A stretch of 64,000 bases of DNA, taken from Beijerinckiaceae bacterium. Lineage in GTDB: Bacteria; Pseudomonadota; Alphaproteobacteria; Rhizobiales; Beijerinckiaceae. Below, in pieces: positions 6,588 through 11,213 of this stretch. Every line of letters begins with the position of its first letter. Position 1 is the stretch's first letter. Made by a program: the position numbers and the translations under genes. The stretch is from contig JAPZTO010000006.1 of the NCBI GenBank assembly GCA_027532775.1, positions 62,001 through 126,000 of the forward strand, given 5' to 3'. The notes beneath the pieces were generated by a model. The model did no database searches. It had not been told where the DNA came from and saw nothing but the letters and a program-made list of their open reading frames with translations.

Positions 6588-6616
6588 GGGCCCGCGCCGC
6601 CGGCCGGCGCGGGCCC
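6588..6616 (+). other. Strong intercistronic hairpin between SBP and permease genes
   Basis: GGGCCCGCGCC-(7 nt)-GGCGCGGGCCC, perfect 11-bp stem followed by TTTCCCC. Confidence 0.7.
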
Positions 6617-6657
6617 TTTCCCCAACCCGGGCCCTTTTCCCAACCGGAGAGTGATAC

Positions 6658-8296: not shown

Positions 8297-9177
8297 TGCG
8301 GCCGGAAGCCCGCCTGCCCTATCGCGCCAGCATTGACCGGCCTCCCCTTGCCCTGCCGGATGGGAAATCGGTCGCCTGCTGGTTCATCGTCAATGTCGAG
8401 AACTGGCTGATCGACAACCCGATGCCGCGGCAGGTACTGGTCGCGCCGACCGGCGCGGCGTTGCAACCGGATATCGCCAACTGGGCCTGGCATGAATACG
8501 GCATGCGCGCCGGGTTCTGGCGCCTGCTGGCTGCGTTCGAGAAACGCGGAATCCGGCCGACGCTCTCGATCAACGGTTCGGTCTGCCACGCCTATCCGCG
8601 CGTCGCCGGAGCGGCGCACGAGGCCGGCTGGGAATTCATGGGCCATGGCTTCGTGCAGGTGCCGACGCACCGGGTCGAGGATCAGCGCGCGATGATCGGC
8701 CAGACGGTGGAGACGATCCGCGCCTTTACCGGCAAGCCCTGCATCGGCTGGCTCGGGCCCGGCCTGACCGAGACGCTCGACACGCCGGATCATCTCGCCG
8801 AGGCGGGCATCCGCTATATCGCCGACTGGGTGGTGGATGACCGGCCCTGCCGGCTGGCGACGCGGCATGGAACGGTGCTGACCATGCCCTACACGGTCGA
8901 GCTCAACGACATTCCCACCATCATGATCCAGCATCACCCCGCCGAGGAGCTGGGCCACCGCGCCCTGCGCACGGCGGACAGGCTGGCGCGCGAGGCCGGT
9001 TCCGGCGAAGGCGCCAAGATCATGAGCATTGCCATCCACCCCTACATTACAGGGGTTCCACACCGGATTGACATCTTCGAGGCGCTTCTCGACGATCTGA
9101 TCCGCCGGGGCGATCTCGCCTTTCTGCAAGGGCACGACCTTCACGATTGGTATCTGGCGAGTGGCGATGACACCTGA
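8293..9177 (+). CDS. Polysaccharide deacetylase family protein (PuuE-like)
   Basis: NodB-homology-type protein with VNVENWLIDNPMPR, WHEYGMRAGFWRLLAAFEKRGIRPTLSINGSVC, EFMGHGFVQ, SIAIHPYITGVPHR. Confidence 0.75.
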   Translation: MMRPEARLPYRASIDRPPLALPDGKSVACWFIVNVENWLIDNPMPRQVLVAPTGAALQPDIANWAWHEYGMRAGFWRLLAAFEKRGIRPTLSINGSVCHAYPRVAGAAHEAGWEFMGHGFVQVPTHRVEDQRAMIGQTVETIRAFTGKPCIGWLGPGLTETLDTPDHLAEAGIRYIADWVVDDRPCRLATRHGTVLTMPYTVELNDIPTIMIQHHPAEELGHRALRTADRLAREAGSGEGAKIMSIAIHPYITGVPHRIDIFEALLDDLIRRGDLAFLQGHDLHDWYLASGDDT

Positions 9178-10015
9178 CGTTCCGGCCTGGCGGCACTTCA
9201 GCCAAAGCGATCTCGATTCTGCCTATAACAACACAGCCGCAGTGGCACGCTCCGGCGAGATCCTGAATTCGTTGACCGCCCGGTCGGTCAAGACGCGCGA
9301 GCGGTCAGCGATTGCACTCGACCTCGCCTATGGGCCCGGTGCGCGCCAGACGATCGACATTTTCGCCTGTGGCCATCCGCATGCACCGATGCTGGTCTTC
9401 CTGCATGGCGGCTACTGGCAGCGCAATGCCAAGGAGATGTTCTCAGTTCTGGCCGAGGGGCCGCTGGCCCATGGTTTCGACGTGGCGATGCCGGGCTACA
9501 CCCTGGCGCCGGAAGCCTCGCTGACGCGGATTGTCGAGGAATGCGAAACGGCGATCCGGCTGCTCCGGGTGGTCGGGCCGTCGATGGATGTCGCGGAATC
9601 GCGCCTGATCGTCAGCGGCTGGTCGGCCGGCGGGCATCTCGCGGCGCGACTTTCGGAAATGCCGGAAGTCGATGCCGCCTTGGCAATTTCCGGTGTTTTC
9701 GATCTCGAACCGATCCGGCACAGCTACCTTCAGGCGGCGCTCCGGCTCAGCTCCGAGGAAGCACATTTCCAGAGCCCGCAGCATCGCGTGGCGCAGGCGA
9801 CAAAGCCGGTCTCGGTGATCTGGGGCGGGGCAGAACTGCCCGAATTGCAACGCCAGAGCCGGGATTACATCGCAGCCCGTGCGACTGCCGGGATGCCGGT
9901 CAGCGGCGGGGCGATCGAGGGTGAGGACCATTTCACGATCCTCGCGCAGCTGGCTGACCCGACCAGCCAGGTGACCGGCCATCTCCTTGCGCTCGATTCC
10001 GGATTGGGCGACTGA
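9167..10015 (+). CDS. Alpha/beta hydrolase (arylformamidase/KynB-type HGGYW motif)
   Basis: MLVFLHGGYWQRNAKEMFS oxyanion motif, GWSAGGHLAARL nucleophile elbow, overlapping the upstream deacetylase gene. Confidence 0.75.
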   Translation: MTPDVPAWRHFSQSDLDSAYNNTAAVARSGEILNSLTARSVKTRERSAIALDLAYGPGARQTIDIFACGHPHAPMLVFLHGGYWQRNAKEMFSVLAEGPLAHGFDVAMPGYTLAPEASLTRIVEECETAIRLLRVVGPSMDVAESRLIVSGWSAGGHLAARLSEMPEVDAALAISGVFDLEPIRHSYLQAALRLSSEEAHFQSPQHRVAQATKPVSVIWGGAELPELQRQSRDYIAARATAGMPVSGGAIEGEDHFTILAQLADPTSQVTGHLLALDSGLGD

Positions 10016-10102: not shown

Positions 10103-10149
10103 CGTCCCGCCAAAAAAACAACGTCCCGCCAAAAAAACAACGTCCCGCC
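10103..10149. repeat. Tandem 19-bp repeat (CGTCCCGCCAAAAAAACAA x2 plus 9-nt partial)
   Basis: Units at 10103-10121 and 10122-10140, third partial CGTCCCGCC at 10141-10149. Confidence 0.95.
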
Positions 10150-10164
10150 TGGAGGGGCGGGACG
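10103..10164 (-). terminator. Rho-independent terminator of the puf operon with triplicated 3' arm
   Basis: Minus strand: CGTCCCGCC-CCTCCA-GGCGGGACG-TTGTTTTTTT-GGCGGGACG-TTGTTTTTTT-GGCGGGACG, immediately downstream of pufM. Confidence 0.85.
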
Positions 10165-10256: not shown

Positions 10257-11213
10257 TCATTGCGCCGGCGGCGTGGCCGGCCACCAGTTCGGATCGGCCG
10301 GCACGATGCCGTGCTTGATGCCCCAGTCATACCAGTTGTCGACCACGGTGCCGGTGAGCAGGATGCCAATGCCGCCGGTGATCGGGCAGAGGATGGCGAA
10401 CCAGTAGGCCCAGCGATGGATGGATTCCATCGAGGCGTTGAAGCCCATCGTCCAGCGCCAGAAGAGGGCTGCACGTTCCGAGGCGGTGCCGCGATCGGTG
10501 ATCTGCTCGATCTCGCGTTCGCCGCCGTAACGGGTGACCGCGAGGATGGTGCCCGCATGCATCGCGAAGAGGAGCGCCGATCCGTAGAGGAAGGCGATCG
10601 AGAGCGCGTGGAACGGGTTGTAGAAGAGGTTGCCGTAGCGCAGCGAGAAATTCTGCGTCCAGTCGAGATGCGAGAAGATGCCGAAGGGCACAGCCTCGCT
10701 CCAGCTGCCCATCATGACCGGCCGGATGAAGCCGAGCACGAGATAGAGCCAGATGGCGGCGGCAAAGGCCCAGGCGACATGGGTGCCCATGCCGAGCGCG
10801 CGGGCCCGGCGATAGGTGCGCACCCACCACAGGATGATGGAGGTGGTCAGGAAGAACCCGGCCATCAGCCACCAGCCGCCATCCGCCAGCGGCGGGATGG
10901 AGAGACCGTATTCCGGCTTCGGCGGATCGAGCGAGAGCCAGAAGAGCTTGCGGATGAACTGGACAGGGTCCCAGCCCACCGAAGCCCACATGTTCAGCCC
11001 GATGATCTCGATGGCGATGATGCCGCAGATGATCGAGGTGACGCCCGTCCAGCCGAGATAGACCGGGCCGAGCTGGGCATCGCCGAACTTGCCGAGCCAG
11101 TAATTATGGCTGGTGGTCTTGCCGCGCTCGGAAGGGCCTGCCGGCAGCGGCACACCCAGATCCGCGTCACCGTGGACCTGAACCCGTGTGAAGATGTTCT
11201 GATAATAGGCCAT
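10257..11213 (-). CDS. pufM: Photosynthetic reaction centre M subunit
   Basis: [24 protein letters not shown]..., [73 protein letters not shown]. Confidence 0.98.

Follow-up and report, generated by a model that had tools for sequence, protein, structure and literature searches.

A predicted puf operon terminator with a tandemly duplicated 3' half in a Beijerinckiaceae bacterium

The puf locus and its repeated 3' end

The window analyzed here, a stretch of 64,000 nucleotides from the genome of a Beijerinckiaceae bacterium, carries on its minus strand a puf operon in which the products of pufL and pufM (10257..11213) match the Pfam family Photo_RC, with two antenna genes, likewise confirmed by Pfam, located upstream. 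Converging on pufM from the plus strand is an alpha/beta hydrolase gene (9161..10015), also confirmed by Pfam. Between these two genes, about 92 bp past the pufM stop codon (10259-10257), lies a repeat that reads, on the minus strand, CGTCCCGCC-CCTCCA-GGCGGGACG-TTGTTTTTTT-GGCGGGACG-TTGTTTTTTT-GGCGGGACG-GTGTTTTGC (10164-10103 for the arms and the sequence between them). A single 5' arm, CGTCCCGCC (10164-10156), preceded by a CGG (10167-10165) able to lengthen its pairing, is followed by the loop CCTCCA (10155-10150), which is the same in all five species aligned, and then by three identical 3' arms, GGCGGGACG, at 10149-10141, 10130-10122 and 10111-10103. The first two arms are each followed by TTGTTTTTTT, so that the segment at 10130-10112 is an exact tandem duplicate, without a 5' arm, of that at 10149-10131. 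The third copy (10111-10096) is degenerate: its arm is intact and runs into GTGTTTTGCAGG, with one mismatch past the arm and a tail of GTGTTTT that turns GC-rich instead of forming a proper U-tract. This arrangement of one 5' arm and three 3' arms had been read in a preliminary description of the locus, and direct reading of the sequence bears it out to the base.

Tandem Repeats Finder (TRF) describes the array as 2.8 copies of a 19-bp period with a 97% match and a score of 101, the highest among the arrays of the window, and its occurrence far exceeds chance expectation. The 19-mer is unique to this site in the 3.8-Mb genome when scanned with up to two mismatches.

Several features indicate that the repeat region is the intrinsic terminator of the puf operon with its 3' half tandemly duplicated, in agreement with the identity first proposed for it. 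Among the terminator-like sites of the region it ranks first, with 12 pairs and the tail TTTTTTT, and, as in Rho-independent terminators generally, a stable GC-rich stem of 9-12 pairs with a 6-nt loop lies 3' of an operon and is directly adjoined by a U-tract, the 5' arm being paired with arm 1 in computed folds. On the plus strand no T-tract follows the stem. Transcription of the operon probably ends here, the 5' arm and the segment at 10149-10131 together being the predicted functional terminator. The site differs from an ordinary intrinsic terminator in that the 3' arm and U-tract are repeated downstream without further 5' arms.

Competition among the three 3' arms

On paper the 5' arm can pair with any of the three copies, and nested alternative hairpins had been proposed on this basis. 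Computed folds of growing transcripts, however, place the 5' arm on arm 1 with a mean probability of 0.85-0.999 in nearly all prefixes, the lowest value (0.68) being found in one short context that ends inside arm 3. The nine-pair hairpin formed with arm 1 has an energy of -19.4 kcal/mol, against -17.1 kcal/mol for arm 2 and -16.8 kcal/mol for arm 3, i.e., the alternatives are weaker by 2.3-2.6 kcal/mol. These folds describe equilibrium and not kinetics; arm 1 is also the first to be transcribed. Since arm 1 dominates the folds and emerges first, a role of arms 2 and 3 as fail-safe hairpins is unlikely. Tandem terminators likewise place U-tracts in series 3' of one operon, but each of them forms its own full hairpin, whereas the puf site has a single 5' arm and its second and third 3' arms are seldom paired. 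The second U-tract could by itself still aid termination.

The terminator in related genomes

The same stem-loop with a single 3' arm follows pufM in four congeneric genomes, G013, G014, G015 and G016, the last of which has the same downstream sequence as Rhabdaerophilum sp. SD176; two further members of the genus are metagenome-assembled genomes deposited as Methylobacterium sp. Because these four congeners carry one 3' arm, the duplication is most plausibly a derived trait, confined to the window's species within the Rhabdaerophilum group. This agrees with the earlier proposal of a 19-bp tandem duplication of 3' arm plus U-tract. The U-tracts of the four relatives are weaker and interrupted (TTGTCGTTCGG, TTGTTCGTTTGG, TTGTCGTTCGG and TTGTCTTTTGG), the first U-tract reaching a simple T-score of 3.99 in the window's species versus 2.42-2.96 in the relatives. 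In the other four puf-bearing members whose pufM 3'-UTR was inspected, the terminator is of another sequence and has a good T-tract. A search with the terminator DNA in 99 genomes sampled across the family returned the genome itself and one weak 24-bp match, and nothing else.

As a separate observation, the nearest relative of PufM is that of G014 (97%), and that of ribosomal protein L1 is in G015 (99%), a mismatch for which horizontal transfer of the puf genes or uneven rates are possible explanations.

Repeated 3' arms elsewhere in the genome

The preliminary description held that no common terminator is known to have this layout. Indeed, we found no description of one 5' arm serving many 3' arms in the open-licence literature; the puf layout is nevertheless not unique, because the terminator of rplA in this genome (L117 18544-18640, contig C14) shares it. 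There, GCCCCGCGCC-TCC is followed by three copies of GGCGCGGGGC, each with five or six T residues, spaced by 29 and 30 nt. The copy number is one in the relatives G015 and G016 and two in G014, where the second is weaker; arrays of this type are absent from the other 12 relatives with sequence downstream of rplA. When this terminator is folded computationally, arm 2 takes over the pairing in transcripts of intermediate length. A weaker case lies in the window at 6590-6645 on the plus strand, where an intra-operon hairpin between two transport genes carries an 18-bp duplication of the partial end of its 3' arm and a T/C tail; related forms are shared by G000, G014 and G016, and not found in G013 and G015.

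How often such arrays arise was surveyed in 1.88 Mb of the genome, taken in pieces, and by pattern scans over the whole of it. The surveyed 1.88 Mb contain 187 terminator-like sites, at six of which a 7-mer from the 3' arm recurs no more than 60 nt away, and just two of these six, puf and rplA, are clear arrays of arm plus T-tract. The whole-genome scans for T-tract patterns gave no additional clear case: two loci with repeated T-tracts (C13:559923 and C15:33313) were rejected for having no 5' arm that fits the repeat, and C15:239871 because its own terminator stem was absent on inspection. Of 81 terminator-like sites drawn from the window and from further loci, mostly other puf regions, the puf site alone has copies of arm plus U-tract. 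Short tandem arrays are frequent here: the 1.88 Mb contain 169 non-overlapping ones with periods of 12-40. Three of them overlap the 3' half of a terminator, where uniform placement, which takes no account of intergenic location, predicts 0.66 and reaches three in 2.9% of shifts; the overlap is thus just mildly above the uniform expectation.

The duplication of half a terminator at three loci of one genome suggests that terminators may evolve by small steps, and loci with one, two or three arms offer natural test pairs for 3'-arm competition during termination. At C17:279692-279730 on the minus strand of this genome (L246) lies an overlapping double terminator with GAAGGCGCC arms; between its T-tracts is a segment that G014, G015 and G016 share in nearly identical form.

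Origin of the extra arms

The preliminary description left the choice between a fail-safe device and a product of slippage, and the second of these is favored here. It is likely that the 5' arm pairs with arm 1 as an ordinary puf terminator, with release of the RNA at the first U-tract, and that arms 2 and 3 are by-products of a tandem duplication, specific to this lineage, of 3' arm plus U-tract, probably through replication slippage beside the hairpin. Lacking a 5' arm, the extra copies would at most provide a further U-rich stretch for a polymerase that slips past the first, and they are presumably nearly neutral. The layout is explained most economically by recurrent tandem duplication, for which the ordinary process, perhaps assisted by the hairpin, suffices. 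Against the by-product reading, the duplication accompanies a better first U-tract than that of the relatives, the operons carrying it (puf and rplKA) are both ones for which high expression is expected, and the rplA fold switches to arm 2 at intermediate lengths. The first two of these leave some room for selection for stronger termination.

A stepped fail-safe, in which a polymerase reading through the first U-tract would be stopped by new pairing of the 5' arm with arm 2 or arm 3 at the next one, could draw on the exact identity of arms 2 and 3 to arm 1, on the U7 tract behind arm 2 and on the ability of arm 2 to dominate at intermediate length in the rplA parallel. Such a device is nonetheless improbable at puf, as arms 2 and 3 have no 5' arm of their own; moreover, in computed folds about 99% of the 5'-arm pairing is already with arm 1 once the second U-tract has been transcribed, displacing it yields no energy gain, and arm 3 has no U-tract.

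Somewhat less probable still is selection acting on the U-rich 3' tail, its lengthening or doubling being favored for stronger termination or for better Hfq binding by the released puf 3'-UTR RNA. The two U7 tracts of the window's species, set against the poor, interrupted tracts of its relatives, and the strong conservation of the puf 3'-UTR (see below) would fit this explanation, but a point mutation would be enough to improve the tract, with no need of duplication, and the stem persists in the relatives although their tracts are weak, so that termination strength is apparently not needed. An assembly artefact in the repeat count is very improbable, since the 62-bp array has unique flanks and fits within a short read, and its third copy has differences of its own.

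The conserved 3'-UTR closed by this terminator merits more attention than the repeat.

A conserved three-hairpin element in the puf 3'-UTR

The terminator closes a conserved element of about 103 nt (10240-10138, minus strand). Three hairpins are predicted for it in all five species, H1 (10240-10211), H2 (10202-10172) and H3, the terminator itself. Its last ~70 nt (about 10208-10138) are nearly invariant across the five species, with unchanged runs of 24 and 31 bases; the longer run spans the terminator and is the longest within an alignment of ~2 kb that includes pufM, whereas the noncoding DNA just 3' of the element has 6% invariant columns. The five-species alignment contains no compensatory changes, because there is too little variation, and the fold is therefore supported by energy and not by covariation. 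The covariance model finds one copy per genome in these five genomes, always after pufM, and none in any other genome of the genus; nor did covariance model R1 give a convincing copy at 39 other puf loci. In the other clade of the genus, an unlike sequence at the same place is likewise predicted to form three hairpins with C-rich loops. At one locus (L010), ~115 bp of extra hairpin-rich sequence lie 3' of pufM, before the conserved 3'-UTR of that clade.

In Rhodobacter sphaeroides, the sRNA PcrX is made from the puf 3'-UTR (PMC8625941, PMC9438474). The element at 10240-10138 is similarly a conserved RNA, predicted to be structured, that lies between the final puf gene and the operon's terminator, with the difference that pufM is the last gene of the operon here. 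The likeness is one of position; a PcrX-type sRNA would, in addition, be released by RNase E and regulate the puf mRNA. A puf 3'-UTR sRNA that is PcrX-like in position is a reasonable hypothesis, and the conserved RNA ended by this terminator is a candidate for puf 3'-UTR regulation outside Rhodobacter.

Another point of comparison is the alpha-r14 or cuckoo sRNAs, such as NfeR1, which have three hairpins with anti-Shine-Dalgarno loops and an unpaired CCUCCUCCC motif in each (PMC10746234). The puf element resembles them in its three consecutive hairpins and C/U-rich loops, CUCCCCUU in H2 and CCUCC in H3, but it does not have CCUCCUCCC in each of its loops and would be part of an mRNA 3'-UTR. 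Membership in this family (RF02344) was rejected, as the score is 24.4 bits against an Rfam gathering score of 58.8 and unpaired CCUCCUCCC is not present in each of the three predicted hairpins; an Rfam search at a permissive threshold gave only sub-threshold matches, to the rnk leader, Rhizobiales-2, ar14 and tfoR, none of which was accepted as membership. It is rather doubtful that the puf 3'-UTR of this Rhabdaerophilum group encodes a conserved three-hairpin sRNA with anti-Shine-Dalgarno-like loops for which, in the window's species, the multiplied 3' arm would provide several alternative 3' ends or tails and so adjust its abundance or its binding to Hfq. The predicted loops are CCUCCUUC in H1, which differs among species, CUCCCCUU in H2 and CCUCCA in H3. 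Taken alone, matches to the complement of the conserved H2 loop segment in the same genome are not informative: one site, with two mismatches, lies 7 bases 5' of an ATG (C13:695477), and the others are weaker.
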